DNA of 64,000 bases from Phytoseiulus persimilis. Taxonomy: Eukaryota > Arthropoda > Arachnida > Mesostigmata > Phytoseiidae. Positions within the stretch are counted from its first letter, which is position 1. Each line of letters opens with the position of its first letter. Positions 8,263-44,856 of the stretch are shown here, piece by piece. Both the position numbers and the translations under genes were made by a program. Below the pieces are notes generated by a model that was not told where the DNA came from, made no database searches, and saw only the letters and a list, made by a program, of their open reading frames with translations. The stretch spans positions 4,712,001 to 4,776,000 of the forward strand of contig CM075103.1 of NCBI GenBank assembly GCA_037576195.1, in the 5' to 3' direction.

Positions 8263-11200
8263 ATGAGTGGGGCTTACTGCGAAGGTCCGTTATGGGATCC
8301 GAGCTTCTGGAGCGACGAACCGCCAGTACTGACGGAGTGCTTCGAAAATACAGTGCTCGTCTTCGTTCCGAGTTTCTTCATCCTCATCGGCGGCGCGTTC
8401 TATCTGTACGGCCGGAGGACATGGCCCGGGAAGGGTTTGCCGCTCACGATCCTCCATTGCGCGAAACTTTGCACAACCGGCGCTCAGATGGTGCTGCATT
8501 CGTACGGCATCTACTACGCTCTGACGAGTGCTCTTTCAAGCACGTCGGACTTCGTCACCGATCTGCTGCGGACAGTGAACTTCCTCATGGTGTTCATCCT
8601 CCTAGTCACCGATCGCAACCGGGGAATCTTCAGCTCGGCGTTTCTGACGATCTTCTGGCTGCTGGAAGTGCTGTGCGAGCTCCCGGTCTACTATCGCCAC
8701 TTGCTGACGGCCTTCGCGCCGGGAGTCGTTCATGTCGAACCAGTGCACGACACCGACTTCATAATCGAGATGATCAGCTTCCCGTTGCTGCTCGTGCAGT
8801 TCGCGCTTGCGGCCTTCGCCGATGACATCCCGACTTTGCGCAAAGGCCAACCGAAACGACATCCCATCTATACGGTGTCCCCTCTGTCCAAGCTCTTCTT
8901 CAACTTCTTCTCGGAGCTTGTCTACAAGGGCTACAGGAATCCGCTCTCCATGACCGACCTCCCGCCCATCATCGATTCGATGCAGTCAGCCAACTGTTAC
9001 CGAGAATGGAAGAACACCGAAGACTCGTACAGAGCCTCCGGTCAGAAACTCACACTGATCAAATCGATCTTCTTGACGTATTGGCCAGTCCTGTCGTTCG
9101 TTTGGATGCTGGAGATCCTGTTCGTCCTGACCCGCGTCAGCTCTTTCCTGGCGCTGAATGAGCTCATCCTCTACCTGAGCTCCCCCAGCGAACCCGACTG
9201 GAAGGGTTACGTGTACGCGATCCTGATCTTCCTCGTGTACAACATTTCGGCAACGCTGCTGCGCTGGGGGGACTACATCCTCATTTCGCTCGGTATCAAG
9301 ATCAAGTCCCTCCTGATCGCCGCGATCGTCCGCAAGTCGTTCCGCGTCGATGGGAACCATCTGGGGAAGTTCACCGTCGGCGAGCTCGTCAATCTCCTCT
9401 CGGTGGACGCGGACAAGATTTACCAATTCTCGAACTATGTCGGCATCATGATAGGCTGCCCGTTCTACGTGGGACTCTGCACCTACCTCCTCTGGAACTT
9501 CCTCGGGCCCTCCTGCCTCGCGGGCATCGCGATAATCGTCGTCATGTCGCCCATAACCGCCATCGTCGCCAACGTCAGTCGGAAGATGCAGGGCGCGCAG
9601 ATGACTCTGAAGGACACGAGGCTGAAGTACATCGGGGAAATCCTCGCCAGCATAAAAATTGTGAAATTTTACGGCTGGGAGCCGCCCTTTGTCGATCGAG
9701 TCCAGAAAGTTCGTAAGGAAGAGAACGTTTATTTGACCAAATTCGCCTACCTCACGGCCACGCTGCGTTTCTTCTGGTCGGTGACGCCCTTCCTCGTGAG
9801 TCTCTTCGCTTTCGTCACCTACGTCCTCGTCAACGACCTCACCACGATCGACACCAACGTCGCTTTCGTCTCGCTCGGCCTCTTCAACAGCATGCGCTTC
9901 TCGCTAGCGGTCATCCCCGACGTGATCTCGAACGGCGTCCAAACTCTGGTGTCCGTCCGCCGAATCGAGAACTTCCTCACCGCGAAGGACCTGGAGGAGA
10001 ACGTTGTCGGCAACTCGCCCGGATCCGGCAACGCTGCCAAATGGCAGAACGTGTCGTCCAGCTGGACGGACAAAGAGTCCGAGCTCTCTCTGCAAGATAT
10101 CGACCTCACGATCAAGACCGGCGAGCTCGTCGCTATCGTGGGCAAAGTCGGCTCTGGCAAATCGTCGATACTCAACACGCTGCTCGGCGACATCAAACTC
10201 ATGCGCGGCAAGGTCGATCTGGCCGGGACAGTTTCCTACGTGCCTCAACAAGCCTGGATCCAGAACGCGACCATCAAACAGAACATCATCTTCACCAAAC
10301 AGTTCAACAGGATGGCCTACAAGCGCGTGCTCGACAAGTGCTGTCTGACAACGGATCTGAAGATCCTTCCCGGGGGCGATCAGACCGAGATCGGAGAGAA
10401 GGGCGTCAACTTGAGCGGCGGCCAGAAGCAGCGGGTATCGCTTGCGCGCGCCGTTTACATGGACCGGGACGTTTATCTCCTCGACGACCCGCTCAGCGCC
10501 GTCGATGCGCACGTGGGCTCGGCGATCTTCCACAACGTGATCGGGAACAGCGGCATTCTGAAGGGCAAGACCCGCATTTTCGTCACCAACATGCTCTCCG
10601 TCCTGCCAAAAGTCGACCGCATCGTCTTCCTGAAGGACGGGAAGATCTTCGAACAAGGAACGTACGACGAGCTGCTGAACGCTGTCGGGGAGTTCGCGGA
10701 TTTCCTCAAAGAGCACGCGGCGAAAGGCAACAAGAGCGTGGAGGAAGCGGAGCCAGAACCCTTCGTCATAAAAGAGAAATACCAGCGGTCGATGAGCATC
10801 GTCTCCAACGACAGCGTGACGTTCTTCGGGGATCAGCACAATCAGACCCTCATCTCGGATGAAGCGATGCAGTCGGGCTCCGTCAAGCTATCGGTCTACA
10901 CGAACTATTGCTCCAAAGTGGGCTTCACCTTCTGTTTCTTCGTGCTCGCCGGTTTTGCCGGCGCGCGTGCTTTCGACGTGTACAGCGGTGTTTGGCTCAG
11001 CGAGTGGTCCAGCGACTCGCCGGAGAAAACACCCGAGAACTACGCCCAACGGACCCGCCGGATCCTCGTCTACGCCGCTCTGGGGCTCGCCTACGGAGTT
11101 TTCTCGTTCGTCGGGACCGCGTTCCTCGCCACCGGAACACTCAGGGCCGCGAGAAAGCTGCACAACGGAATGTTGCGGGCGATCGTCAGGGCGCCCATGA

Positions 11201-12624
11201 GCTTCTTCGACACGACGCCTCTTGGTCGGCTCCTGAACCGCTTTGGCAAAGACGTCGATCAGCTGGACATCCAGCTGCCCGTGGCGGCGAACGTTTTCTT
11301 CGACATGTTCTTCCAGCTGCTCGGCGTGATCGTGCTGATCTCGATCAACATCCCAATTTATCTTGCAGCCGCGGGCCCCCTCCTCTTCCTGTACATGGTC
11401 TTCCAGAGGATCTACATGAGGACCATACGGCAACTGAAACGGATGGAGGGCGTGACTCGCTCGCCGGTCTACAACCACTTCGCCGAGGCCCTCGACGGCC
11501 TGAGCAGCATCAGGGCCTACTGCGCGGAGGACCACTTCGTCTCCAGATCGGACGAAAAAGCGGACGCGACCCAGAACTGCACCTACCTCCTGTTCGTCGG
11601 GAGGATGTGGCTCGGAACCCGTCTGGATTTCATCGCGAATCTCCTCATCGCTGCATCCGGAATCCTGGTCGTGCAGCAGAAGGGGATCATGGATCCCGCG
11701 GTCGCTGGCTTCCTGGTCTCGTACTCGATGGGAACCGCGTTCGCCTTCACTCTCATCGTCCACTTCGCGTCGGAGGTCGAGGCGGCCATTGTTGCCTCGG
11801 AACGCTTGGAGGAGTACACCGACGTCGAGTCGGAGGCGCCGTTGAAAACCGACTTCGAGCCGGAAGACTCCTGGCCTGACGACGGCGCCATTGTCTTCGA
11901 TAAGTACTCGACCCGTTACCGTAAAGGACTGGAGCTGGTTCTCAAAGAGGTCGACCTCCAGATCCAACCTCGCGAGAAGATCGGGGTGGTCGGCCGCACC
12001 GGAGCCGGCAAGTCGTCGCTCACGCTCTCGCTCTTCCGGATCATCGAAGCGGCCGAGGGCCGTTTGATGATCGACGGAATCAACATCGCAAACCTCGGCT
12101 TGCATGATCTACGTCCCCGCCTCACGATCATTCCACAAGATCCTGTGATATTTTCGGGAACACTCAGAGTCAATCTGGACCCCAACGACGTTCACACCGA
12201 TGAGCAGCTTTGGCACGCGCTCGAAAAAGCTCACGTCAAGAAACAGTTTTCAGCGGAAGGTCTGCAGACCGAGATCGCCGAAGGCGGTGCGAACCTGTCC
12301 GTTGGCCAGAGGCAGCTGATCTGTCTGGCTCGAGCCATTTTACAAAAGAAACGAATTCTAGTCATGGACGAGGCGACCGCCGCTGTGGACGTTGAAACAG
12401 ACGCACTCATCCAGAAAACGATTCGCGCCGATTTCTCCGATTGCACAATACTCACCATTGCTCACAGACTGAACACAATTCTTGATTCGGACCGAGTGAT
12501 AGTGATGGATGCCGGCAAAGTTGTCGAAGAAGGCTCTCCGCGAGCATTGTTAGAAGATCCGTCGTCTCGGTTCTACGATATGGCGCTCGAAGCCGGTTTG
12601 GTGGAAACACCGAAAAAATCTTAG
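8263..12624 (+). CDS. Full-length ABCC/MRP-type ABC transporter, intronless
   Basis: 1453-residue ATP-driven membrane exporter of the ABCC subfamily (MRP1-like 'long' architecture). TMD0 with five predicted hydrophobic segments covers about residues 1-200 and includes the family-typical F.NTVLV..P segment. It is followed by the L0 linker, TMD1 about 270-560, NBD1 (Walker A GKVGSGKSS near 627, signature LSGGQ near 717, Walker B VYLLDDP near 737), TMD2 about 870-1180, and NBD2 (Walker A GRTGAGKSS near 1244, signature LSVGQ near 1345, Walker B LVMDEA near 1367). NBD1 carries Asp in the catalytic Glu position; NBD2 is canonical. The ATG was chosen because it begins directly before the conserved TMD0. 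The length is normal for the family. The absence of any intron in a gene that usually has many is notable. It is flanked by a truncated-by-window copy upstream and a decayed copy downstream. The transported substrate cannot be told from sequence. Confidence 0.97.
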   Translation: MSGAYCEGPLWDPSFWSDEPPVLTECFENTVLVFVPSFFILIGGAFYLYGRRTWPGKGLPLTILHCAKLCTTGAQMVLHSYGIYYALTSALSSTSDFVTDLLRTVNFLMVFILLVTDRNRGIFSSAFLTIFWLLEVLCELPVYYRHLLTAFAPGVVHVEPVHDTDFIIEMISFPLLLVQFALAAFADDIPTLRKGQPKRHPIYTVSPLSKLFFNFFSELVYKGYRNPLSMTDLPPIIDSMQSANCYREWKNTEDSYRASGQKLTLIKSIFLTYWPVLSFVWMLEILFVLTRVSSFLALNELILYLSSPSEPDWKGYVYAILIFLVYNISATLLRWGDYILISLGIKIKSLLIAAIVRKSFRVDGNHLGKFTVGELVNLLSVDADKIYQFSNYVGIMIGCPFYVGLCTYLLWNFLGPSCLAGIAIIVVMSPITAIVANVSRKMQGAQMTLKDTRLKYIGEILASIKIVKFYGWEPPFVDRVQKVRKEENVYLTKFAYLTATLRFFWSVTPFLVSLFAFVTYVLVNDLTTIDTNVAFVSLGLFNSMRFSLAVIPDVISNGVQTLVSVRRIENFLTAKDLEENVVGNSPGSGNAAKWQNVSSSWTDKESELSLQDIDLTIKTGELVAIVGKVGSGKSSILNTLLGDIKLMRGKVDLAGTVSYVPQQAWIQNATIKQNIIFTKQFNRMAYKRVLDKCCLTTDLKILPGGDQTEIGEKGVNLSGGQKQRVSLARAVYMDRDVYLLDDPLSAVDAHVGSAIFHNVIGNSGILKGKTRIFVTNMLSVLPKVDRIVFLKDGKIFEQGTYDELLNAVGEFADFLKEHAAKGNKSVEEAEPEPFVIKEKYQRSMSIVSNDSVTFFGDQHNQTLISDEAMQSGSVKLSVYTNYCSKVGFTFCFFVLAGFAGARAFDVYSGVWLSEWSSDSPEKTPENYAQRTRRILVYAALGLAYGVFSFVGTAFLATGTLRAARKLHNGMLRAIVRAPMSFFDTTPLGRLLNRFGKDVDQLDIQLPVAANVFFDMFFQLLGVIVLISINIPIYLAAAGPLLFLYMVFQRIYMRTIRQLKRMEGVTRSPVYNHFAEALDGLSSIRAYCAEDHFVSRSDEKADATQNCTYLLFVGRMWLGTRLDFIANLLIAASGILVVQQKGIMDPAVAGFLVSYSMGTAFAFTLIVHFASEVEAAIVASERLEEYTDVESEAPLKTDFEPEDSWPDDGAIVFDKYSTRYRKGLELVLKEVDLQIQPREKIGVVGRTGAGKSSLTLSLFRIIEAAEGRLMIDGINIANLGLHDLRPRLTIIPQDPVIFSGTLRVNLDPNDVHTDEQLWHALEKAHVKKQFSAEGLQTEIAEGGANLSVGQRQLICLARAILQKKRILVMDEATAAVDVETDALIQKTIRADFSDCTILTIAHRLNTILDSDRVIVMDAGKVVEEGSPRALLEDPSSRFYDMALEAGLVETPKKS
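9790..9860 (+). repeat. 71-bp block identical to bases 33-103
   Basis: This stretch of the complete ABCC gene is base-for-base identical to bases 33-103 of the first copy, while surrounding codons differ at many third positions. It encodes the end of TMD1. Confidence 0.85.
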
Positions 12625-22273: not shown

Positions 22274-22582
22274 ATGTCCGGGGCTTACCTCCTACAACTC
22301 AGCCTCCTGCACGTTTCTCTTCCACATGTACATTATTACGGCGAAGGCGATAAAGGCGGAATCGCCCTATCGGCGGCGATTGTTGTAGCGCACGCTGGCG
22401 CCGGCGGTTTAATAAGTGGTTATCTTATGGGACACCGAGATAGCCATCACGGCCATAAAACCGCGAAAATTGTTCTCAAGAAGGAGCCCGAAGTGAAAAA
22501 GGCTCTGATACAGGCAATTTATCACCACGCGCCGCCAGGTCACGGCTTCTCCAGCTGCGGGTACCGAGGTCTTCTCAAATGA
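22274..22582 (+). CDS. Gly/His-rich small protein, family copy 1
   Basis: 102-residue open frame from ATG. The N-terminus is moderately hydrophobic (MSGAYLLQLSLLHVSLPHVH) and could be a weak signal peptide. The core GAGGLISGYLMGHRDSHHG is plainly homologous to GAGAVASGYLMGHGGHHG in the gene at 29223-29480. It then extends into a lysine/glutamate-rich tail (KKEPEVKK) and a histidine-rich end (YHHAPPGHG) that the other copies lack. The poly(C) run at 22595-22610 begins 12 bases after the stop. The frame is intact, but the start region does not match the well-formed signal peptides of the other copies. It may be an older divergent copy or a fragment whose first exon has been lost. Function unknown. 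Confidence 0.55.
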   Translation: MSGAYLLQLSLLHVSLPHVHYYGEGDKGGIALSAAIVVAHAGAGGLISGYLMGHRDSHHGHKTAKIVLKKEPEVKKALIQAIYHHAPPGHGFSSCGYRGLLK

Positions 22583-22594
22583 GAGTTTACCGAG

Positions 22595-22610
22595 CCCCCC
22601 CCCCCCCCCC
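22595..22610. repeat. Poly(C) tract, 16 bases
   Basis: Uninterrupted run of C just after the stop codon of the preceding open frame. Confidence 0.9.
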
Positions 22611-23575
22611 AAGAATGCTCCGAGGGTACCTGTGATCAGTTGCTGGGATATTCCGTGTTCCCCAGCGATGTCAGCGAAGATCATACTGTATCATGAACGA
22701 TTTTAAGCGATTATAATGAACTCCATACTCCTGGATGGAACATCCGGGTCGTTACCTGAAACCGCACCTGAACCTACGCATCCACGCCCCGCAACCTATA
22801 TCAGACCAATTGATCTTCATCGTAAAAGCTCAATGCACATCAGACATTGACACTGCGAGCGCAGGAGCCCTGTGTGGGTGGGGTGTTTCATCTCATAGAG
22901 GTTCATTCCGATGGACGGACACCTTTTTGGGAATGGACGGCGACTGCATACACCATAGCTCCTTATCCGTGGCAGCCCATTCAGAGGAAATCAACTGTTG
23001 ATGAATCCGATATATTCGACAATATGCCAAATGCGAGGGCTCATGATTGGGAGACGCTTCGGTCGAGCTCGACACTCGAACAGACTACGTTTTGTGCAAC
23101 AGAAGTGAGATTCCGTGGGAAGCTCACTATTTATCTCAGATATGCATCTGAACCACAAGCTCACTCATCTTCGACCTCTACCGTTGAAGGCTTGAAATTG
23201 GCGGCGCCCGCGCAACAGATTCCACAGTGCGACCAAACACGAGCGTCCTTCTCCACCTCAAGCGTGGCAGAAGATTAGCGGGGTCGCAAATCGGGGAGTA
23301 AGATGGATCAATCAATCGAGCGATTCCTCGACGGACGAGTGATTGGTTTGGTGAATACGACAAGCACGATTCGCGCAGGATTGCGGCGTCGATGCGCTCA
23401 TCCTAGAAAAACTGTCCGGTTGCATTACACGGAGTCGCGACCGAGGCGAGATGGATTGGTGTCAACATATTTTCAGTTCACGCATCCCTCAGAAGGAAAA
23501 CTCGCATCGATGTTCCTTTTTACGATCGGATTCAAAACTGGAGATCATCCTCGTCTGGACACGGTTCGGAAAACG

Positions 23576-23802
23576 ATGCGTCTGGCCGTCGGGAGATTTG
23601 GGGCAACAGGAATCCTTCTCATGGTTGCAGCAAGGCCGGTGAGTGCTCGCACACGACCAGCCTCCTCGACGAATGATGAACGCAGGAAGCTGCGCTAAAA
23701 GGTGGATACCTCGGAGTAACTGCAACGCTTGGAGGGTATCTGCTCGGCCGATGTGCGATGCAGCATGGCTCGCATGATGGAGATCATCGTGAACGCGAGT
23801 GA
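23576..23802 (+). CDS. Gly/His-rich small protein, family copy 2, two exons
   Basis: Proposed spliced gene: exon 23576-23638, intron 23639-23685 (47 bp, GTGAGT...CGCAG), exon 23686-23802, phase 0, 59 residues. Exon 1 gives MRLAVGRFGATGILLMVAA, which resembles either a short signal peptide or the GAGILLAAL segment of the relative at 29223. Exon 2 gives GVTATLGGYLLGRCAMQHG followed by a His/Asp/Arg tail. The GGYLLG and HGSHDG motifs align with SGYLMGHGGHHG of the other copies. Each half is cut off by a stop in its own frame, so the join depends on the intron. It could also be a decaying pseudogene. Function unknown. Confidence 0.45.
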
Positions 23803-24669
23803 TTTCAACTTCAGGCCCCTCTCTGCGTGTCAGTCCAAAATTGATCCTCTTTCCCTATCACCTCGAGTTCTGTAGGTCGAGACTGGTTTCACTGCATCTA
23901 TCCCCATCTCGTTCATGTGTATGAAACGCTCATTTGCCAACAGCTTAAAGCCGTCTCCCGGCCAATGATGACCGATGAAAGCTGAGCGGATCCGCAGAGC
24001 CTGCTCTAGAGCTTCGAACGCTACGATGTAGTCAGATAAATCATTCTCATGAAAAACGGGAAACGTGGATTGTTTGGGTGAAAATTACGTGCGTTCTTCG
24101 CCTCTCAACGTCTCCTAAGACGGTCATTACCCTGTTCGGGTTCAGCTTCCAGCTTGCTCTTCAACATGTCAGGGAATTAAGATCAGGGCATGGCGCTCCA
24201 TGATTTCCAGGAAGCTGACGATCCTTGAAGACTCTGGAGTCAGCCTTCCAGACCCGCGGAATCGCTACAACGTGTCGGAAGTAGTCCCGAAGTGCTCCTG
24301 ACGTAGGAGTTGACCGAGTCGTTATTTCCCCTCTCATAAGGAGGGGAGCTGAATTCTGGAGCTAGAATCGGGGAGCGAAGACCGGATCCATTCCTTGATT
24401 CGCTTTCACTCTCGCTCAAGCAGCGTCGAGTTGCTCGCCTCGAGTTTTCAGCGAAGCTTTTGGTCAATCAGAAGTATGAATGCGTAGCGGATAGAACTCG
24501 AGCTACGTCAGAGGCTTCATGGTATCGAACATCGATTGAAGGCAATGACCGTATAGAAAACTATGCGAAGTTCATACTGGGAGTTCACTTCCGAAGAGCA
24601 GTTCTGAATCACTGCGGTGCATCACGCGATCGTCCACGCGAGCTTCGGCTGCTCGAGTCCCATCTCTCC

Positions 24670-24710
24670 ACACAATATATATATTATTATATTATATACA
24701 CAATATATAA
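24670..24710. repeat. AT-rich simple-sequence tract
   Basis: ACACAATATATATATT and related AT repeats. No gene overlaps it. Confidence 0.7.
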
Positions 24711-25243
24711 CCCGATACCGGAAAAAAACCGAATACCTAATATCGATAGGAGTTGGGAGCCCCTAGAAACACTCGGCGGGGCGTCTCGCACCAGTTGCCG
24801 CTTCACAAGGACTCCTACAACGAGTGCGGCGCACTTCGATGTAAAGTTTATGCGAAATGCCACTCGGAGCGAGATATCAAAAGCTTGTTACTCGACCGAG
24901 ATTTCAGATGTTCTTGCTGATCTAGTACTCTGTAGAACTATCTTGAACCAATTCGCCTTGAGTCCCACCCATAGCACCTAGTTTCTCCGGCGTTTCTGAA
25001 ACTGCGTCTCGGAACTCTTGCTATTTGAACGGAAGCGAAACTCATCGATTCCCCACACTCCCAGGCGACCGGAGTATCCGCCTAGTCGGCAGAAAGACCT
25101 CCGCTCTCTGTGGTTTCCGGCAACGCGTTTTTTTTCTGACAGATCCAGAGAACTCGAAGCTGGTACTCAGTATTGTGGTCGCTTCTCGTTTCACCATTGC
25201 TCATCTCAGTCCGGGGAGCCCGCGGGAAAATTGGCAGCGACAG

Positions 25244-25378
25244 AAAGGCAAAGGTGGTGAAGTGATGCTCCTAGCGACGGAAGAGGCCCACCCGGGAGCC
25301 AATGCGCTCATTGGAAGTCACTTCCTGGGCAATCATGGCCACCATAAGGAGCACCATGAAACCATCGTTTCTGGGTGA
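25244..25378 (+). pseudogene. Gly/His-rich family copy 3, partial or decayed
   Basis: An exon-like piece begins right after a CAG acceptor-like triplet. It encodes KGKGGEVMLLATEEAHPGAN and then GSHFLGNHGHHKEHHE, matching KGGGAELLIAGLSGAGAG and the GFMLG..RNHGNHG core of the gene at 30939-31330. It ends at a GG|GTGAGT splice-donor-like site in the same place and phase as the intron of that gene. No signal peptide exon and no terminal exon were found, and several conserved glycines are replaced. It is most likely a relic, though an unrecognised spliced gene is possible. Confidence 0.5.
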
Positions 25379-26735
25379 GTGTAAAAGGAAGACACTTGAA
25401 ACTTGTAACGAAAGCGTGTCCAAGTGCCGGCGTGTGCGCGCGAGTGAATCCTTCCCATTGTGATGCCCGCTCTTATCGATTTTAACGACCTCCGTCGATT
25501 GCAAACGCGGCGGCTATCATCATTTTCATGACGACTCCTAACGTTGATAAGATCCGAGGGGCTGTCCAATGAGTAGAAAAGCCGCAGCAACATTTCGATT
25601 GGAAAACTCGTCGGGAACGGACGAAATAAGCTTGTGTGCCCACATGTCTGAGGAATTGTCGTTTTGGCGTGGAGCCTTCACACTTGCAGACGACACGATC
25701 ACGAAACGACAATCCATGAAATAGAGGTCTGAATGGTATTCGCTCAGCGATCGTTTCCGTAAATTGGCGAGCAACCAGCGTCGAGTTCCGTGGCTGTTCC
25801 ACCCTAACGGTAGCTGTGCCGTGGAATAACAGATTTTCGTTCCCCTGCCTCGCGAGGAATGAGATCTTCCGAATCGCTTGGACAATTGAGAAATCATGAG
25901 AAAGCATCGTAAGGCTCGATGAGCGTGGTCCCCTGAGTCGTCGGAGATTTGTTTCCGACCCGATGATCGACTCACCCACGCGAAACGTCGGAACCATGGT
26001 CAACTTCGCATATTGCTCCGAACGGCCGATACATCATAGACTCTCTGCGCTGGATGAGCCCGAGTTTCATCCAGAGATTCCCGTACAACGGCGTCACTGA
26101 TTAGGAGGCTGCGGAACTTCATCCGGCGTGTCATATCCTCAACTGAAGTTTGCGACCTTCGCACTCCATGTTTTGATGCGCGCTGAAACTTGCGTGACCT
26201 TCGACATCGACGAGTCCTCCGGAGGAGGTTCCGGAGTTTGTGCTCCCGAAATCCGAGTATTCTCCTCCATAGACTCAGTGAAACACTCGTAGACTCATAT
26301 TCGGAGGCGATATCCATTCATCGCTCATTCAGCACATTCTGGCGTTACATTCGTCTCGAAAAAGTCGATAGATGGCAGCCGAATAGTCATGTCTCGACTT
26401 CTTGTGGCGGATTGATATTGTTTCACCCGAATCACAGCTGAGCGTCTCTTCTGAATTACGGTCGCTCCGCAGTGCATCACTAAGATACGTTCTCGTTGAC
26501 AATAATTAGCTTTTTCCATATTTCGAGGGGACTCTGAACAGACGCGACGCTCCGCGCGTCATATGTTCTCGAGTCTCCTCCTCCTTCCCCAGCATCGAGC
26601 CCACCGACCGTGTTTACTAACTGAGCAGACGATAGCCGGCGCTGCGAACTCGTAACAGCTGAGTGCCGACCGCTTCGAAATTACCGCTTGGAAATTGTTC
26701 TCCGAGGTTATAGCGCGTGCAAGACAGGGCTCACG
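25379..26735. other. Intergenic, upstream of GLE1
   Basis: No supported gene. A TACTAAC branch-point-like sequence followed by an AG lies about 26615-26630, so a 5' leader intron of GLE1 is possible. No TATA box was noticed. Confidence 0.4.
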
Positions 26736-28694
26736 ATGTGGGAGAGCCCAGTGATGGCTCCGGCACCGAATGCTCCATTCGAGGAAGCTTTGAAGCGAGC
26801 AAGCGATTTCTTCGCCGCCAAAGAATCACAGAATCCCAGTTCGGATAAGGACGTACAATCCGGTGACAGTGAAGGAACGTCTCCAGCCGAGGAATTTTCG
26901 TCATCCTCCCGAAGTTTCGGAGCTCACGAAAGCGTTAGTACGCCGGAAGAATACAAGCGACTGCTGCAGCGAAAACGCCTGTCTGACATAATGCTCAGCT
27001 CTCCGCCCGGCCGAATAGAATGGCCCTCACAGCCCCTCGTTTCCGATGAGGAGCCGGAGTCGGTTCGAAGAAGGGAGACTCCGGACGTCAGTGAAGACCG
27101 GAGAACGACGCAGGAGAGCACCGCGAAGAGTCTAAGTCCGGAAGCTGCCGAAGAAAAACTCCGCACAGAAGCCGCCAGAATGCGGGCCATCGAAGAGCGT
27201 GAAATCCTTTCGTTGTACGAGAACGCGGATCGGCAGGCCCAGAAGGAGCATGAAAAGTTCCTGAAACGGTACACTGAGCTTCAAGAGGCTCTTGAGGCTC
27301 AGTACAGGCGGGATGAGGAACGAATCATCTTGGAAATCACGGAGAGGAAGCAAGCGCTGCTCGTGAAAGCTAGACGCGATAGCGGGCTACTTGTTCAACT
27401 TCACAAGACACTGTCGGAGAAATCCGCTGAGTCCGCCGACGCCTTCGCCGCCAAAGCGAAGGAAATCGTCGAATTGGCCGAGAGAGCCAAACAAGAGGAA
27501 GATAAAATCCTTGTGCAGAGAAAGCTGCAAATTCTGAGGGCTGAAAACAAGAGGAAGTTTGAGGACGCCGTGTCCAGTATCGAGAAATCCATCGATACGT
27601 TGCAACACGATCTACCCGAGTCTCAGACTGCGAAGGAGCAACTGATCAGGATTAAAGCGTCGCTCAAGGATCCGGCGAACCTCGAGAAAACGTCGATATT
27701 GGAGGAAGCGCTGGCGGAGATTAAAAATATTCTCGACAAATACGCTGCAGCTCTTGTGGAACGCGAGGAAAAAAAAGCGGAGGAGACGAAAACGCAGCCT
27801 AAACCCAGGCCGCAAGAGAATCGTTACCTTCAAGCGGTAGAGAAGCTGAAGAGAAACGCTGAAAGTTACTCCAAGGTCGTCGGGGACAACAAGAATCTCC
27901 GGAGGGGCATCCTGTGTTTTATACAGCTGACGGTGAACAAGATCCAGAACCAAACCAATAATGCAGAGCACGCGCTTTCCTTCGTGAAGCTGTTCAGCAA
28001 CGAGACCGTGCCCATCGGCGTTGGCAACGAAACGGTCTGTCTCGCCGGGCACAAAGACGCGGCGAAGTACTCCATGGATTTGACGGCGAAGAAGATCCTG
28101 GATAACGTAGAGAAACTGCCATCAGATCCAGTACATAACTGGATACCTTACGCGACAGTTGTTGCAACTCTCTGGTCGATGTCGCCCACATTCGGAGAAA
28201 TTTTCTACGACAATCTCGTGTCTCGGTGTCCGTTCCTGGTTCCGTTGTATTTCGGGGACCTTTCCGAAGAGGAATCTCTGGCATACGTCACGAATTTCGT
28301 CCACTACAAGAACGAGAACTGGCCGACATTCATCAAGCGCATGGGGTACTACTCGAGGTTGCTCGGGGTGGTTTGCACGATGAGACCGCGTTGGGGTCCA
28401 CCTTTTCCGCCAGGCAAGATGTGGGCGCTCATGGCCGGCACTGTGAAATGCGAAGTGAAAACAAAAGAACTGGGTGAGGTGGCTGCTATGGTGATGAAGT
28501 CGCTCCTGGAAACGAGCGGTCACATGATGAAGGCCTCCTACGGGAAGCAATTCAGCAAATTCACCCATCTCCTATGTACGGAGTACTTCGAAAAACTCCG
28601 AAAAATCGCCAAGAACGCACCAACCGTTGTCAATCTGGAAAGTTTCATGAAGGAAGTGATTACTGCGGGTGGGAACTTCGCTCCGATAAGTTGA
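26736..28694 (+). CDS. GLE1: GLE1 mRNA export factor (nucleoporin)
   Basis: 652-residue protein. GLE1 sits on the cytoplasmic face of the nuclear pore, where with inositol hexakisphosphate it activates the DEAD-box helicase DDX19/Dbp5 to release exported mRNPs. Residues 1-140 are serine/acid-rich and presumably disordered. Residues about 140-355 are strongly charged and heptad-like (AEEKLRTEAARMRAIEERE onward), the coiled coil typical of the family. Residues about 360-645 form the conserved GLE1 C-terminal helical domain, with hallmark stretches VVATLWSMSPTFGEIFYDNL, RMGYYSRLLGVV and TSGHMMKASYGKQFSKF. The ATG at MWESPVMAP was chosen; the frame extends upstream only through a non-ATG codon. 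Length is close to the human protein (about 700). The gene is intronless. It is the one clearly conserved housekeeping gene here and sits inside the glycine/histidine-rich gene array. Confidence 0.93.
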   Translation: MWESPVMAPAPNAPFEEALKRASDFFAAKESQNPSSDKDVQSGDSEGTSPAEEFSSSSRSFGAHESVSTPEEYKRLLQRKRLSDIMLSSPPGRIEWPSQPLVSDEEPESVRRRETPDVSEDRRTTQESTAKSLSPEAAEEKLRTEAARMRAIEEREILSLYENADRQAQKEHEKFLKRYTELQEALEAQYRRDEERIILEITERKQALLVKARRDSGLLVQLHKTLSEKSAESADAFAAKAKEIVELAERAKQEEDKILVQRKLQILRAENKRKFEDAVSSIEKSIDTLQHDLPESQTAKEQLIRIKASLKDPANLEKTSILEEALAEIKNILDKYAAALVEREEKKAEETKTQPKPRPQENRYLQAVEKLKRNAESYSKVVGDNKNLRRGILCFIQLTVNKIQNQTNNAEHALSFVKLFSNETVPIGVGNETVCLAGHKDAAKYSMDLTAKKILDNVEKLPSDPVHNWIPYATVVATLWSMSPTFGEIFYDNLVSRCPFLVPLYFGDLSEEESLAYVTNFVHYKNENWPTFIKRMGYYSRLLGVVCTMRPRWGPPFPPGKMWALMAGTVKCEVKTKELGEVAAMVMKSLLETSGHMMKASYGKQFSKFTHLLCTEYFEKLRKIAKNAPTVVNLESFMKEVITAGGNFAPIS

Positions 28695-29113
28695 GAGCGA
28701 AAATCTCTGTAAAAACAATGTTGTGTAAAAAGTCTTTGAATTTCAAGCCATTGACGAATTGTAATGCTGTTTATAAACAATTTGCTTAGGCGGCGGAGCG
28801 ATGTTGAATTTTCTGCTGGGATAAGGGACAAGTCGTTCGGGTATAATTGATTGATATTTGCCCACTCAAAGATTGGGCTTTGTGTTCATGAGGGTTTGCG
28901 AGGTGGCTTGTTCCGGTGAGTTCTCGGCGGGATTTCGTCCCTTCGGCGGTCAAGCAGTTTCAGAAGAGCGCTCGCACAAGGTCTTGTTTACGAAGCGGGC
29001 AAGGGTTCCATTGAAAAGTTCACTCCGGAAAAGCACGCATTCGGATTACATAAGCCGTCACGCCCCTTGGACCTGGAAAGTTTTGGAAAGAGCGGACGGG
29101 GTTTGGGACTCGC
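28695..29113. other. Intergenic between GLE1 and a small secreted-protein gene
   Basis: Holds the GLE1 3' region, with no canonical poly(A) signal nearby, and the promoter side of the next gene. No additional gene was seen. Confidence 0.4.
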
Positions 29114-29121
29114 GATAAATA
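29114..29121 (+). promoter_or_regulatory. TATA-like element GATAAATA
   Basis: Lies about 100 bases before the ATG of the secreted glycine/histidine-rich gene at 29223, at a plausible distance for a short 5' leader. The match to TATA is weak. Confidence 0.3.
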
Positions 29122-29222
29122 CACCGCCCGGCGTGACTGTCGGGATATTCTGGAGCAGCAGCCGCTTGTTTCAGGTTAGCTGAGCGATCCCCCGTCCGAG
29201 TGTAGAGTCAGCTGAGTCCAAC

Positions 29223-29480
29223 ATGTACTTTCCTCGAGTCACGTGTCTGTCATTTGTTCTACTATTGGTTCTGTTCCTGAGTTTCCGACCGTCTGATGCG
29301 GGATCAAAGCTGTTTGGCGGTAAAAAAGGCGGAGGCGCTGGCATCCTGCTCGCAGCTCTCGGAGGAGTCGGCGCCGGAGCCGGAGCCGTGGCTTCAGGCT
29401 ATCTCATGGGTCACGGAGGTCATCATGGCTACGGTCACGGCCATGGCCACGGTGGAGGCTATGGAGGCTACAGACGATAA
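29223..29480 (+). CDS. Secreted Gly/His-rich protein, family copy 4
   Basis: 85-residue single-exon gene. Residues 1-26 are a classical signal peptide (Arg near the start, then SFVLLLVLFLSF, with cleavage probably after PSDA). The mature part has three blocks: a basic glycine block (KLFGGKKGGG), a small-residue hydrophobic segment GAGILLAALGGVGAGAGAVA with GxxxG spacing that could cross or insert into a membrane, and a His/Gly/Tyr tail (GHGGHHGYGHGHGHGGGYGG). The layout recalls secreted glycine-rich antimicrobial or cuticular peptides of arachnids and metal-binding His tails, but I do not recognise a named family. An AATAAA lies 52 bases after the stop. This is the best-preserved copy, together with 30939-31330. 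Confidence 0.85.
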   Translation: MYFPRVTCLSFVLLLVLFLSFRPSDAGSKLFGGKKGGGAGILLAALGGVGAGAGAVASGYLMGHGGHHGYGHGHGHGGGYGGYRR

Positions 29481-29531
29481 TCGCAGCCGAATAAGAAAAG
29501 ATAGTTTACGGATGTAAAGCCAAATTCGAAA

Positions 29532-29537
29532 AATAAA
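29532..29537 (+). terminator. Poly(A) signal of Gly/His-rich copy 4
   Basis: AATAAA 52 bases after the TAA stop. Confidence 0.6.
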
Positions 29538-30852
29538 AATTACATCGACTCAAGAAGCCTACTTTTCTCTCATTGTAGTCCGAAATCAAATTCACGAGAA
29601 CCAACTCAGAGCTCCTCGAACTCGACGATCGCTCCGAGAAATCCCCGGCCGGATGAAATGGTCAGGAAACCATGAAGAGGCTCGTGGCGCAAGGAGACTC
29701 CGTCCTGCGTCTTCGTGGTCTCAATGAATCCTTCCATTCGCAGCGACTCGACGATTGGAAGCCCCTGAGAAGTTCAATTGGATCCAATTCGGCCTTTTCA
29801 CCCAAGTTACTGAAATTTCTCGAAACCAATCGGTTATGATTATCCCCTGCCCAGTTGAACCCAATAACCGTGTATCGAAGAAACATCATTAGATTGAGTT
29901 AGGGTTTGTAAGTAAGAATGATTGGAAGCTCAGATTAACAAAAAAATGTCTCTTTCGAATGTTCTCGCACGAATGCGAATGTTCTCTCGAATGTGTTCGA
30001 ATGTTGCGACTTTGAGGGTATCAACGACAAGAAGTCCATGTTCTTCGAAACGAATACTAAATTATCTCGAGCGTGAGCAATGCTCCATGCTCAGGGAATC
30101 GAGTCACTTCAACAGTGATCGGTTACGAGGAATATCATCCGTCGATGAAAACTATGAAACTGAACGATACAGCGCCAGTGTCTGGGAAGGGCGGACCCCA
30201 TCCTCATATAACTCGCTTGTTGTCAATATCTGACGAACAGTGCTCCCTCCTCACAACTGCTAATTTCGAATCATCTCTCTTGACTCAACGTGTGTGTCTC
30301 AAATCGATAACCCGCTTCCGGGGAGAGACAGGGGTCCGCTAATTCAGATTCTGCGATTCCGGGTCTGTCCTTTGGACTGAAGAGGGCCGAAAATGAGGCG
30401 AGACTAATTTAGGGGATGAAACACGGATCGTATGGAATCTCCGTTGAACTTTGGCATTCGCCCGAGCTCAGTTGCATGACATAACGTCGTTCCAGACCTA
30501 CGAACCCAGATACGGCCATCAGAATCAGTCATCGTGAGGCCGGACGCAGCCATCGACAGCTCAGCGTCGGAGCAAATCAACGAGCATTTGCATGGGTCAC
30601 GCCTGAAACCGAGAAAACCACTCAGACCCTTATCGTTCCATGAGACCGAGCCGTCATCGGAGCGTTTTCACGGGGGGCGACGATCAGAAATCACCATTCT
30701 GTGAAAAAGCGTTCAAGTCATTATTCTGTTTGGAAACAACCGCAGAGACCCGAGACGGCTTCGAGTCGAAAGTCCGATTGAATTCAGTGGCATTGGAAAA
30801 TCAACAAATTACGTAACCCCTCATGGGGTGAGGACCTCAGGCGGAGACCCGA
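29538..30852. other. Intergenic, no gene seen
   Basis: No supported coding sequence between the two well-preserved glycine/histidine-rich genes. Confidence 0.5.
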
Positions 30853-30857
30853 TATAA
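30853..30857 (+). promoter_or_regulatory. TATA box of Gly/His-rich copy 5
   Basis: TATAA (in GATATAAG), 86 bases before the ATG. A TCAG initiator-like sequence follows about 38 bases downstream. Confidence 0.5.
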
Positions 30858-30938
30858 GTCCATAAACAAGCAACACTTCTCACAGACACCTCAGCATTCG
30901 ATAAACGGAATAAGCGAGCACCGAGGAGAAAGTTCCCA

Positions 30939-31330
30939 ATGCATTTCTCGAAAGTTAGTTGCCTCGCCCTCCTAGGTATCTTGCTCCTCTGTTGGCAATC
31001 TGTCGATGCTGGAAAAGGAATGTTCGGAGGTAAGAAGAAAGGTGGAGGTGCCGAGCTCCTCATCGCCGGACTCAGCGGGGCGGGAGCTGGCGCCACGGCT
31101 CTGATGGCGGGATTCATGCTCGGGCAGCATCGAAACCATGGAAATCATGGTGGAGGCCATAAAGTCGAGCACGTTTACCTGGGGTAAGAGACAGCTTCCA
31201 TAATTTTCGAGAGGTTCCCGCGTCGAGACTGTTCTGGGTTTGCTTTCGACTTGATCAGGTTTCCCAGGATTGGAAATCACAGACTTCTTGATGTTCCAGC
31301 GATCACTACGGAAAAGGCCACAGTTGGTAA
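30939..31330 (+). CDS. Secreted Gly/His-rich protein, family copy 5, two exons
   Basis: Proposed exons 30939-31183 and 31300-31330, with intron 31184-31299 (116 bp, GTAAGA...TTCCAG, phase 2); 91 residues. The signal peptide MHFSKVSCLALLGILLLCWQ leads to cleavage after SVDA. The mature protein has FGGKKKGGG, then a small-residue hydrophobic segment (ELLIAGLSGAGAGATALMAG), then a His/Gly tail (GQHRNHGNHGGGHK). Splicing replaces an immediate in-frame stop with a tail GDHYGKGHSW, which continues the His/Gly composition and ends at TAA; this is the main argument for the intron. Unspliced, the product would be 82 residues ending VYLG. An AATAAA lies at 31593. It is the sister of the 29223 gene. Function unknown; an antimicrobial, cuticular or metal-binding role is only a guess. 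Confidence 0.8.
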
Positions 31331-31592: not shown

Positions 31593-31598
31593 AATAAA
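31593..31598 (+). terminator. Poly(A) signal of Gly/His-rich copy 5
   Basis: AATAAA about 263 bases after the proposed spliced stop codon. No other gene on this strand needs it. Confidence 0.5.
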
Positions 31599-33654: not shown

Positions 33655-34347
33655 TCAACGAGTCATTGAACGCTTCCTGTTCAGCCCTGGAATGTTTTCG
33701 TAGCTCCTGTCGTGCGCAGAACTCCTCGAGATGAAGATGTTGATCGCCAGTGACGCCAAGATCAAGGGATAGGTAATGGTGTGCAGAAGGATCGATTTCG
33801 GCGACAGCTGCGGCACGACTGCGGGACTGAATAAGTCCATCCACGTCCTGTAGTAGGCGGGGAGCTCGCAGATAGACACCAGGGCCCAGTAGGAGATGAT
33901 CAGCGGGGAAGTTTGTTTCTGAACATCGCGGTGCAGGTAATGCAGCACGTGCATGAGGATGCACGAAAGCCAATGGACGACGTCGTACACGATCGAGGCC
34001 AAGGGCACGAAATGCGTTGGCTCACCCCGCTGCTCTGCGTACAGTGCTGAGTAGAAGAGGATTTCCCCGAATACAGAGGCGAGGAAGAATGTGATCATTT
34101 GCAGACAAACCAGAGCGGAACGGGAGAACTGCAGCGGCGTCCATAAGGAGAGCGGTCGTTTCGGACGGAGAACGCAACTATACCGAAAGTATCTCATGTA
34201 GATCCAGTAACAGCTGCCTATGCTGGCGTACAGGAACGGACCATAGCACAGAACGGTCCATTCGAAGCACCTACTGAAAGGCGAGAACCACGACTCGAAG
34301 AAAAACCACGGATCACTGTCTTCACAAAATTCCAACTGGTGTCCCAT
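33655..34347 (-). CDS. Orphan ABCC TMD0-like membrane protein (truncated MRP)
   Basis: 230-residue intact frame from ATG. The start (FCEDSDPWFF...CFEWTVLCYGPF) matches the N-terminus of MRP-type transporters, in which an acidic/tryptophan lead precedes a CF.NTVL..P first membrane segment. Four further hydrophobic segments follow. The fifth region, ALVSICELPAYYRTWMDLFS, aligns with EVLCELPVYYRHLLTAFA of the complete ABCC at 8263. The frame stops after a short basic tail (RKRSMTR) just where the L0 linker and TMD1 should begin. No NBD or TMD1 sequence is seen downstream on this strand. In MRP1 TMD0 acts in trafficking and is not itself the transport core. This is therefore either a TMD0-only protein under selection or a 5' fragment of a broken duplicate whose frame has not yet decayed. 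Confidence 0.75.
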   Translation of the reverse strand: MGHQLEFCEDSDPWFFFESWFSPFSRCFEWTVLCYGPFLYASIGSCYWIYMRYFRYSCVLRPKRPLSLWTPLQFSRSALVCLQMITFFLASVFGEILFYSALYAEQRGEPTHFVPLASIVYDVVHWLSCILMHVLHYLHRDVQKQTSPLIISYWALVSICELPAYYRTWMDLFSPAVVPQLSPKSILLHTITYPLILASLAINIFISRSSAHDRSYENIPGLNRKRSMTR

Positions 34348-34757: not shown

Positions 34758-35455
34758 CTACCCGCTCATTTTAGCGATTTCTCTGCTCAGTCGATCGTAT
34801 TCTCGTTTGTGCTCCATCATTTCCTGTGGGTCCTTGGATTTATAAACCTGCTGTCTGGCCTCGTCTTGTTGCTTCTTGAGTTCTTCCATCTTGCTCCCTG
34901 AAGAAGCACTTGTCGTAGCGTCGGATGCACCACCGGTCGTACTCTGCGCCGCGGTGGTTGTTTCGGCAGCGGTCGTCGTTTCCGCGGCCATTGTCGTCTC
35001 TGCGGCGGTTGTCGTTTCTGCGGCCGTTGTCGTTTCTGCGGCCGTTGTCGTCTCTGCGGCCGTTGTCCTTTCTGCGGCCGTTGTCGTCTCTGCGGCCGTT
35101 GTCGTTTCTGCGGCCGTTGTCCTTTCTGCGGCCGTTGTCGTCTCTGCGGCCGTTGTCGTTTCCGCGGCGGTTGTCGTTTCTGCGGCGGTTGTCGTCTCTG
35201 CGGCGGTTGTCGTTTCTGCGGCGGTTGTCGTTTCTGCGGCGGTTGTCGTTTCTACGGTGGTAGAATCCTGGGCTGCAACTATGCGAAGAAATATTTCAAA
35301 CTTCACTCCGGAGTATCGGGTCGTTTAAGTGAGCATACGTTGACCACCCTCCGTCTTTCCATTGATGCATTCCTTGGGCGCGAGAGGGAGAAACTCCCAG
35401 GACACTTACCGAAAGCAAGCGTGGTGAGCAGAACAGTCGCGACGAAGTACCTCAT
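34758..35455 (-). CDS. Secreted Thr-rich mucin-like protein, two exons
   Basis: Proposed exon 1 is 35410-35455 and exon 2 is 34758-35278, with intron 35279-35409 (131 bp, GTAAGT...GCATAG, phase 1); 188 residues. Exon 1 encodes the signal peptide MRYFVATVLLTTLAF, completed as VAAQ by exon 2. The mature protein consists mostly of about 17 tandem copies of the hexapeptide TTTAAE (variants RTTAAE, TTMAAE), an 18-bp repeat array. This threonine density predicts heavy O-glycosylation. The tail is charged and helical (KKQQDEARQQVYKSKDPQEM). It looks like an extracellular mucin-type coat or gut-lining/salivary protein; this is inference from composition. Third-position differences are few among repeat units, so the array is young or homogenised. 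TATA at 35635-35640 and AATAAA at 34685-34690 bracket the gene. Confidence 0.8.
34945..35262. repeat. 18-bp tandem repeat array in mucin-like gene
   Basis: About 17 near-identical units of GCGGCGGTTGTCGTTTCT (plus-strand sense), with GCGGCC variants. Each encodes one TTTAAE unit on the minus strand. Confidence 0.9.
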
Positions 35456-39335: not shown

Positions 39336-40030
39336 TCACCACCATCCAGCCGAGGGCCATCCGCCGTAGGACACAACTTTTGGGCTCCATCCAGAGTGGG
39401 ACCATCCGGCTGCGGGGAACAGAAGAACCGTCAGGGCGTCCCCGAACAAGGAACCGAGCAAAGTACGGTCCGTGCGAGAGCAGCTCATTGGGAAGAAGAA
39501 CTCCCTGATATTTTGCACATCATGAATACATAATTTTTCCGGGGAAACTTACACGAGGGCCATCCAGCCTTCCATCCTGAAGAAGAGGGCCATCCAGCCT
39601 TCCATCCTGAAGAAGAGGGCCACCCAGCTTTCCAGCCTGAGGAAGAGGGCCACCCACCTTTCCATCCAGAGGAAGGCCACCCTCCGTAGCTCGAGGGCCA
39701 ACCGGTAGAAACGACTTTGTATCCTCCGGAGGGCCATCCAGCCGACCAGCCGCTGGACGGCCATACGGCACCGGCAGAAACTGCCGCAACAAAGGCACCG
39801 AGGAGAGTGATGGCCAACTGTGAAATATGGAGTTAAGTCATCATAATTAGCTCGCAGTGTTATGAAGCCAAGGGCCTCCCGGCCGGGCGGGGCAGCCTAG
39901 CTCTGAGCGCGTCAGGATAACAAACGGCGCAAAAAACACTTTCATGAGTCCCAGAGGAGACGAATCCACCCGGTGAACTCCGAGAGCGTCAGGCGGCTTC
40001 GAATGTGAGCCAACTCACCAAGATTTTCAT
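39336..40030 (-). CDS. Secreted Trp/Gly/Ser-rich repeat protein 1, three exons
   Basis: Proposed exons 40019-40030, 39553-39817 and 39336-39409. Introns are 39818-40018 (201 bp, GTGAGT...TTCACAG, phase 0) and 39410-39552 (143 bp, GTAAGT...CCCGCAG, phase 1); 116 residues. Exon 1 encodes only MKIL. Exon 2 supplies the rest of a signal peptide (LAITLLGAFVAAVSA) and then a repeat domain with GWPSSGW motifs and four 10-residue units near GWKAGWPSSS. Exon 3 continues the same theme (GWSPKVVSYGGWPSAGWW) before TGA, strong support for both joins. Trp every four to ten residues with Gly, Pro and Ser suggests an extracellular structural material such as cuticle, silk-like or egg-coat protein; this is inference. 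No known family was recognised. It is probably a paralogue of the gene at 43739-44856. Confidence 0.8.
39555..39674. repeat. Four 30-bp tandem repeats inside Trp/Gly-rich gene 1
   Basis: Units beginning GAGGGCCATCCAGCCTTCCA; the first two are identical and the third and fourth diverged. Each encodes ten residues of the GWKAGWPSSS type on the minus strand. Confidence 0.9.
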
Positions 40031-43738: not shown

Positions 43739-44856
43739 TCAGTTCAGAAGATCTCTCCCTTTCCGGCTCCAGCTCCACGAGACGGCGTGACCTCTCAGGG
43801 GATCGAACTCGAATGCGCTGTTCTTTTGATCTTCCTCGGGCTGCCACTGCCGGAGAAGCGATTTTGCCGTAAGCGATGCAGCTGCCGGTGTTTGCAGCTC
43901 TTTCGTTTCCCAAACGAGATGTCCATCTTCCTGAACCCAGCGGCCATTGCGCGACAGTTGAGGTCCGAGTCCTGGAAAAAGAGAGAGAGAGAGGGAGCGC
44001 CATGAATGGTCGACGAATTTGCCGTGATTCTTCGAGCTGGGTTCCTCGATCCCACCAAAAACTGTTCGAACGTCAGATCGGGGAGGATGTTCTCAACTAC
44101 AGAAATCGTTGGAGAAAACTGTCGGTCGGACTCACCACTCCTCATAACAGCTGCCATCGGAAGCCAAACTCCTCCTCCGACGGGCACCATCCGCCAAGCA
44201 GGATCCTGGCCGCCATATGTGAGCGGAGCCGGCAGAGCTGGACTCGATGGAGCCACCCAAGTCACCGAGTACCCGCCGCTGCCCCCTGTTGACGGATCCT
44301 GAATAGGAGCGGAGCGGCTCTGCCATCCACCGCCACGTGGAGTAGATTGAGATGAACTTTTCCAGCCGCTCGCCGACGGACTCCCTGAAGACACAATTTT
44401 CCAACCGTCGCTTTTGAGCTCCACGGTTGGGGCCCAGCCGGGCTTCGGTGAATTTGAAACCTGAGAACTCGAGGCCGGCACACCTTTCCAACCCCCAGCG
44501 CCTGCCGACTGCCAAGCAGCACAAGCTACAAACGTCAAAGAGCATCCGAAATAGACGGCAATCTGTAAATACATTTTCGTCACGAAGTTTCGCAAGATCG
44601 ATTATGGCCGAAGCAGCTTACCAGCGGATTTCGGGGGCATAGATTGACAGCTTGGACGCTTGATCTTGGCAATCTTTCGCACTCGGTACGCAGGGAGGTT
44701 TTTGCCGCGGATGATGTTGCGAGACAGAACACAGCACGCTTCCGCAAATAACGTGTTGAGATTGGCGACCACAAGGTTCTGTCGAGTTCCTCTGATCCGA
44801 CCTTCGAGTATGGGACGCCAAACGCTTGGTATCAAATCTCAACTCACCAAGTTCAT
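43739..44856 (-). CDS. Secreted Trp/Gly/Ser-rich protein 2, three exons
   Basis: Proposed exons 44848-44856, 44136-44562 and 43739-43971. Introns are 44563-44847 (285 bp, GTGAGT...TTTACAG, phase 0) and 43972-44135 (164 bp, GTGAGT...CTTTTTCCAG with a long CT tract, phase 1); 222 residues. Exon 1 encodes only MNL. Exon 2 completes the signal peptide (IAVYFGCSLTFVACAA) and continues into Trp/Gly/Ser-rich sequence with GWKIVSSGSPSASGWKSSS and later DPAWRMVPVGGGVWLP. Exon 3 lies in a different frame from the longest open frame and reads GLGPQLSRNGRWVQEDGHLV, ending SWSWSRKGRDLLN before TGA. The tryptophan content and clean phase support it. TATAAAAAG at 44896-44904 gives a very short leader. Exon plan and sequence theme match 39336-40030. 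An extracellular structural role is inferred from composition; no family recognised. Confidence 0.72.

Follow-up and report, generated by a model that had tools for sequence, protein, structure and literature searches.

A candidate family of small glycine- and histidine-rich peptides arrayed around GLE1 in the mite Phytoseiulus persimilis

Introduction

Glycine-rich antimicrobial peptides are known in arthropods, and one account of them gives ctenidins as 109–120 amino acids (aa) long with 70.6–71.6% glycine, acanthoscurrins as 130–132 aa with 72.3–72.7% glycine, and armadillidins as 53 aa with 47.2% glycine (PMC5031766). Ctenidin-like genes have been reported in mites (PMC12027997; PMC8028124), among them putative homologues in G. 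occidentalis, and one study reports that BLASTp found no canonical insect antimicrobial peptides in Varroa and other Acarina (PMC12027997). Histidine-rich secreted proteins are described from a different setting, the cuticle of lepidopteran scales, where their His content is given as 6–45% and the one named is a CPR protein (PMC8062583). Here we analyse an array of five small Gly/His-rich copies, c1 to c5, in a 64,000-nucleotide stretch of the Phytoseiulus persimilis genome (GCA_037576195.1, contig CM075103.1, positions 4,712,001 to 4,776,000; hereafter the window). Each copy is on the plus strand, between 22.3 and 31.3 kb, and GLE1 stands between c3 and c4. They share a short core whose small-residue spacing is of the kind termed a glycine zipper.

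Like the ctenidins, acanthoscurrins and armadillidins, the c1–c5 peptides appear to be small, secreted, glycine-rich and of arthropod origin. Compared by description, they differ from the ctenidins and acanthoscurrins in carrying a separate hydrophobic zipper block and a His tail, and their mature parts (38–80 aa, Gly 15–42%, His 8–13%) do not show the roughly 70% Gly over 100–130 residues that those two groups have in the account cited (PMC5031766). With the lepidopteran-scale proteins, described as cross-linkable structural proteins (PMC8062583), they would share secretion and a high His content, but the five copies match no Pfam cuticular-protein family at E up to 10. As far as the searched libraries show, the array is an orphan cluster, ordinary in kind and new in detail. 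If expressed, it would be a small tandem family that matches no searched profile library and has a clear design of zipper segment and His tail, of possible relevance to mite biology and biocontrol.

Relatedness of the five copies

The five copies are very probably a family, tandem descendants of one small secreted-peptide gene, and the evidence that carries this view lies in the order of their residues. A held-out profile, for which only the mature c4 and c5 peptides were used, was searched against the 1750 pieces that six-frame translation of the window gives at a length of 25 residues or more. Directly below c4 and c5 it ranked c1 (28.1 bits, E 2e-7), c3 (21.8 bits, E 2e-5) and the second exon of c2 (20.0 bits, E 7e-5), the next piece scoring 6.8 bits (E 0.95). 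With the HMMER composition correction, c1, c3 and c2 kept 21.6, 20.6 and 18.5 bits, and the next-best piece of the window had 6.4. Across 100 order-3 Markov windows of the same length, which yielded 181,622 pieces, the top match was 12.3 bits and no window reached 18 bits. Residue shuffles that keep composition gave a similar picture: for six of the ten pairs of copies none of 2000 shuffles reached the real pair, and the others were reached rarely (c1–c3 and c2–c4 by 1/2000 each, c2–c3 by 5/2000, c1–c2 by 6/2000). Taken together, the held-out profile, the Markov windows and the shuffles therefore indicate a relation of residue order and not of composition alone.

Pairwise searches pointed in the same direction. 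When each copy was run by tblastn against both strands of the 64 kb with SEG and composition statistics off, nine of the ten pairs were linked, at E values from 5e-19 (c4–c5) through 1e-6 (c1 to c4) down to 0.10–0.35 (c1–c2). The pattern [GAS]...[GS][YFHW][LMFIV][LMFIV]G, written after the copies had been seen, occurs nine times in the window; with at least three His required in the next 17 residues, it is found in the five copies only, and the simulated windows contain a mean of 0.02 such occurrences each (maximum 1, n = 100). An earlier, sequence-only reading of this DNA had listed the five copies, all of which were recovered in place, every one on the plus strand. It had also named one circumstance that would overturn it, namely that the shared motif is generic glycine-rich low complexity; within the window, the profile, Markov and shuffle tests all speak for a relation beyond composition.

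Peptide anatomy

The features of the array are listed below, all on the plus strand and with the evidence in brackets. All splicing in the gene models was predicted from sequence, which is the sole basis for the two introns, and the list of TATA-like patterns was drawn up after the sequence had been read.

22274..22582, +, c1: single-exon open reading frame (ORF) of 102 aa, with a weak leader, zipper core GLISGYLMGH, a His patch and an additional Lys-rich tail (ORF; tblastn, held-out profile)
23576..23638, +, c2 exon 1: signal-peptide-like MRLAVGRFGATGILLMVAARP (sequence)
23639..23685, +, c2 putative intron: 47 bp, GTGAGT..CGCAG, phase 0
23686..23802, +, c2 exon 2: zipper core TLGGYLLGR, His tail, stop TGA (sequence; held-out profile, E 7e-5)
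25143..25374, +, c3: open frame from an acceptor-like T8-CTGACAG to a donor-like phase-2 GG|GTGAGT, with an altered core (GSHFLGN) and then a His tail (held-out profile, E 2e-5)
26688..28694, +, GLE1: ORF, first ATG at 26736, outside the family (Pfam PF07817, E 4.5e-24)
29114..29120, +, TATA-like GATAAAT, 109 nt upstream of the c4 ATG (pattern scan)
29223..29480, +, c4: single-exon gene of 85 aa, with a signal peptide, lead FGGKKGGGA, zipper core SGYLMGH and a GH-rich tail (ORF, tblastn, profile, hydropathy)
29532..29537, +, AATAAA downstream of c4 (pattern scan)
30853..30858, +, TATA-like TATAAG, 86 nt upstream of the c5 ATG (pattern scan)
30939..31183, +, c5 exon 1: signal peptide, lead FGGKKKGGGA, zipper core AGFMLGQ, His tail (ORF, tblastn, profile)
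31184..31299, +, c5 putative intron: 116 bp, GTAAGA..TTCCAG, phase 2
31300..31330, +, c5 putative exon 2: DHYGKGHSW, stop TAA (sequence)
31593..31598, +, AATAAA downstream of c5 (pattern scan)

The constant element of these peptides is [GAS]xxx[GS][YFH] followed by two apolar residues and G, and then a tail with 3 to 7 His. The zipper residues at positions −8/−4/0 are AGG in c2, c4 and c5, GGG in c1 and ASG in c3. The 19 residues that end at the core have mean Kyte-Doolittle values of 1.41 (c1), 0.87 (c2), 0.05 (c3), 1.16 (c4) and 1.22 (c5), and the net charge of the mature parts (K+R−D−E) is +5 in c1 and c4, +4 in c5, and −1 in c2 and c3. Over the leader, the best 19-residue hydropathy is 2.14 in c4, 1.81 in c5, 1.43 in c2, 1.40 in c3 and 1.02 in c1, values that describe hydropathy only, c3 being without a start. 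Small residues stand at −3/−1 of the leader in c4 (SDA|G) and c5 (VDA|G). On these features c4 and c5 appear to have a clear signal peptide, while that of c2 is plausible and that of c1 weak. An AlphaFold2 model of c4 from a five-row alignment places a helix over residues 38–64 and leaves the tail unstructured, at low confidence (mean predicted local distance difference test, pLDDT, 55.5; predicted template-modelling score, pTM, 0.26).

These details refine the common plan that the sequence-only reading had described. Its three blocks (basic/glycine lead, hydrophobic segment, His-rich tail) are fully present in c1, c4 and c5, but c2 nearly lacks the lead. The hydrophobic GxxxG segment ascribed to every copy is hydrophobic in four of them; c3 departs from it, with SxxxG spacing and the near-zero value given above. 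The literal motif [SG]GYL[ML]G[HR] fits neither c3 nor c5.

Gene status and selection

By their sequence features, c4 and c5 appear to be complete genes, each with a signal peptide, a TATA-like box, an AATAAA and codon changes biased to third positions. Without splicing, c5 likewise reaches the end of its frame, at 31187 (82 aa). Removal of the 47-bp GTGAGT..CGCAG segment from c2 joins its signal peptide in phase 0 to its core, giving 59 residues; one small intron, if real, would thus restore the frame of c2, which the sequence-only reading had taken as altered and which would then not be a decayed relic. The 1.5 kb upstream of c3 yielded no 5′ exon that combines an ATG with a strong donor, and the many candidates for a 3′ exon include none that is convincing, the one at 25690 (GRHDHETTIHEIEV) being a guess. 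The phase-2 donor-like end of c3 is shared with c5, but 12 of the 721 open stretches of at least 50 codons, these two included, end in this way, so the shared donor is suggestive at most.

Codon comparisons were made for the in-register blocks of c1–c4, c1–c5, c2–c5, c3–c4 and c3–c5 as well as for c4–c5, whereas c1–c3 and c2–c4, whose blocks were out of register and showed no bias to third positions, were left out. Between c4 and c5, codon positions 1/2/3 differ in 29/20/54 of 76 aligned codons, and 27 of the 38 identical residues are written with a different codon. Nonsynonymous divergence (dN) for this pair is 0.43, and synonymous divergence (dS) could not be computed because synonymous sites are saturated. 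This pattern is consistent with two old duplicates under purifying selection. Third positions also differ most in c1–c4 (10/11/20 of 32), c1–c5 (12/13/23 of 32), c2–c5 (5/10/18 of 21) and c3–c5 (19/13/28 of 39), the first two positions being uneven in the last two comparisons. Its codon changes make the family look old and constrained, and the earlier description of it as fast-evolving is not borne out: the third-position excess, the dN and the saturated dS of c4–c5 fit purifying selection instead.

Several results nonetheless weigh against reading all five copies as one family of secreted peptides. c2 and c3 are not linked by tblastn in either direction, even unmasked, and SEG masking with default composition statistics removes nearly all cross-copy tblastn matches (c1–c3 remains, at 0.014). 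The tblastn signal therefore lies largely in low-complexity sequence, and it was because of this erasure that generic low complexity was put to the test as an explanation. A fold search that used the poor, low-confidence model of c4 returned 0 matches. No TATA-like box was found in the 200–257 nt scanned upstream of c1, c2 and c3, nor an AATAAA in the ~700–920 nt scanned downstream. In c3 no in-frame ATG precedes the core, the segment is no longer hydrophobic, and the comparison with c4 shows a weak excess at third positions (21/15/22 of 39).

The lack of a TATA-like box and an AATAAA in the scanned stretches around c1–c3, the missing start of c3 and the weak c3–c4 bias also speak for a scenario in which only c4 and c5 are genes and c1–c3 are pseudogenes with frames left open by chance. 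A neutral simulation, run without indels 400 times per setting and scored as an open frame at the observed identity, is compatible with this scenario at low divergence: at 0.3–0.5 substitutions per site c3 stays open in 35–59% of runs, and c1 does so in 41.5% at 0.3 and 2.5% at 0.5. At 1.0 substitutions per site, however, 0 of 400 runs (c1) and 0.3–1% (c3) stay open, while c4–c5 is synonymously saturated; c1 is never open at 0.75 or above, and c3 never at 1.5 or 2.0. As c1 and c2 also carry third-position bias and one putative intron restores c2, we consider it quite unlikely that c1–c3 are all pseudogenes. On present evidence c4 and c5 are probably working genes, c2 and probably also c1 are coding, and c3 is either drifting or equipped with a 5′ exon that was not found. 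The terms relic and decayed, which had been applied to part of the array, would accordingly suit c3 at most: c2 falls outside them if its intron is real, and decay of c1, whose ORF is open, is unproven. Secretion, claimed earlier for the whole family, is supported by signal peptides for c4 and c5 and is plausible for c2 and c1.

Possible function

Searches for relatives agree with the earlier remark that no known named family has this three-block plan: no family was matched in Pfam, NCBIfam or PHROGs, nor any sequence beyond chance in the PDB. Among Pfam models at E up to 10, the five copies returned only ATP-grasp_2 and DUF456, at E 0.12–0.17 and far under the cut-off. Against PDB sequences, c4 had five matches (E 0.29–4.6) and a five-copy profile three (E 1.4–6.8), none of which looks related, and the 28-residue core of c4 had nothing at E up to 10. 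With c4 alone as query, viral and prokaryote contigs gave 600 and 591 pattern matches with 0 confirmed, a result that is silent on mites and ticks. A literature search for the motif strings of these peptides found no occurrence in the papers covered, from which we do not claim that the family is unpublished.

We tentatively favour, at a probability of roughly 0.4, a role for these products as secreted, self-associating Gly/His peptides that form part of a matrix, cuticle or gland secretion. Under this proposal the precursor would enter the secretory pathway by way of its signal peptide, and the mature peptide would open with a short lead of Lys and Gly, continue with a probably helical segment of small residues that closes on the zipper-like register, and finish with a Gly/His tail. 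The zipper faces could let helices pack together such that the peptide self-associates, the flexible His tails might bind metal ions or become cross-linked, and the product would then be a component of one of these materials. Membrane-active, cuticular or metal-binding roles, which the earlier reading had put forward as possible, likewise stand as candidate roles.

The net charges of +5, +5 and +4 in mature c1, c4 and c5, together with segment hydropathies of 1.16–1.41 over 19 residues, would also suit membrane-active host-defence peptides. Such a peptide would attach to microbial membranes by its cationic lead, its Gly/Ala helix would insert and form oligomers by means of the zipper, and its His tail would confer an activity that depends on metal or pH. 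Glycine-rich antimicrobial peptides of other arthropods (PMC5031766) and the ctenidin-like homologues of G. occidentalis (PMC12027997) offer precedents, and because the one study cited detected no canonical insect antimicrobial peptides in its Acarina (PMC12027997), an unnamed secreted mite family could be a defence component just as it could belong to cuticle or gland. Yet c2 and c3 have a net charge of −1, Gly is 15–42% as against the 70.6–71.6% listed for ctenidins (PMC5031766), and the segment appears by eye evenly hydrophobic and not amphipathic. Defence is the main rival to the matrix proposal, a possibility to be kept in view although we hold it to be on the unlikely side.

The length of the segment and the low-confidence helix predicted over residues 38–64 of c4 could instead suggest small cell-surface proteins that span the membrane once or as a hairpin, with the zipper as the transmembrane helix and the His tail as a sensor of metal or pH. 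Spacing of the zipper kind is typical where transmembrane helices pack together, which counts for this arrangement. The hydrophobicity is nevertheless borderline for a membrane span, at 0.87–1.41 in four copies and 0.05 in c3, and we regard such membrane proteins as unlikely.

A further likeness is to PrP and Shadoo, whose plan comprises a signal peptide, a basic/Gly region, a zipper-spaced small-residue hydrophobic tract and metal-binding His. A defining trait of these proteins is a C-terminal hydrophobic signal for a glycosylphosphatidylinositol (GPI) anchor; by eye none is present in the copies, which end in Gly/His or charged residues, the end of c3 being uncertain. Pfam contains prion models, and the Pfam and PDB-sequence results for the copies include neither a prion family nor a prion chain at E up to 10. 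The PrP/Shadoo family is itself described as vertebrate-restricted (PMC3203146). That an arthropod family independently reached the plan of the prion/Shadoo N-terminal half, with metal ions gating membrane insertion or ordered self-assembly, strikes us as very improbable.

Neighbouring genes

The window has a eukaryotic context, with ABCC/MRP-type transporters, GLE1, short GT-AG introns and a G+C content of ~0.52. That a mobile or repeat element gave rise to the array was considered and rejected, as the interval 20–34 kb has four short, chance-like repeat families and no inverted pair.

On the minus strand at 34758–35455 lies a mucin-like secreted gene model of 188 aa, with a signal-peptide exon, a putative 131-bp phase-1 intron, a long TTAAET repeat that corresponds to an 18-bp minisatellite of 16.6 copies, and a charged end. 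A second repeat gene, also on the minus strand at ~39340–39820, carries four copies of a 30-bp unit encoding GWPSSSGWKA and has a secreted look; an acceptor-like site stands directly before its signal segment, and a second exon would follow a putative intron. The secreted, structural look of these two neighbours lends mild support to the matrix proposal for c1–c5. A minus-strand ORF at 43795–44595 has a signal-peptide-like start, is rich in Gly, Ser and Trp and has no Pfam match at 0.01.

At 3–2861 and 8263–12621 on the plus strand are two tandem ABCC/MRP-type transporters, labelled from their Pfam domains and closely similar by eye. The first is partial; the second is intact at 1453 residues and occupies one exon of 1453 codons, which may reflect intron loss or a processed copy. 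A minus-strand ORF at 33655–34347, with no Pfam match at 0.01, looks by eye like the membrane portion at the N-terminus of another ABCC-type protein, which would be the third.

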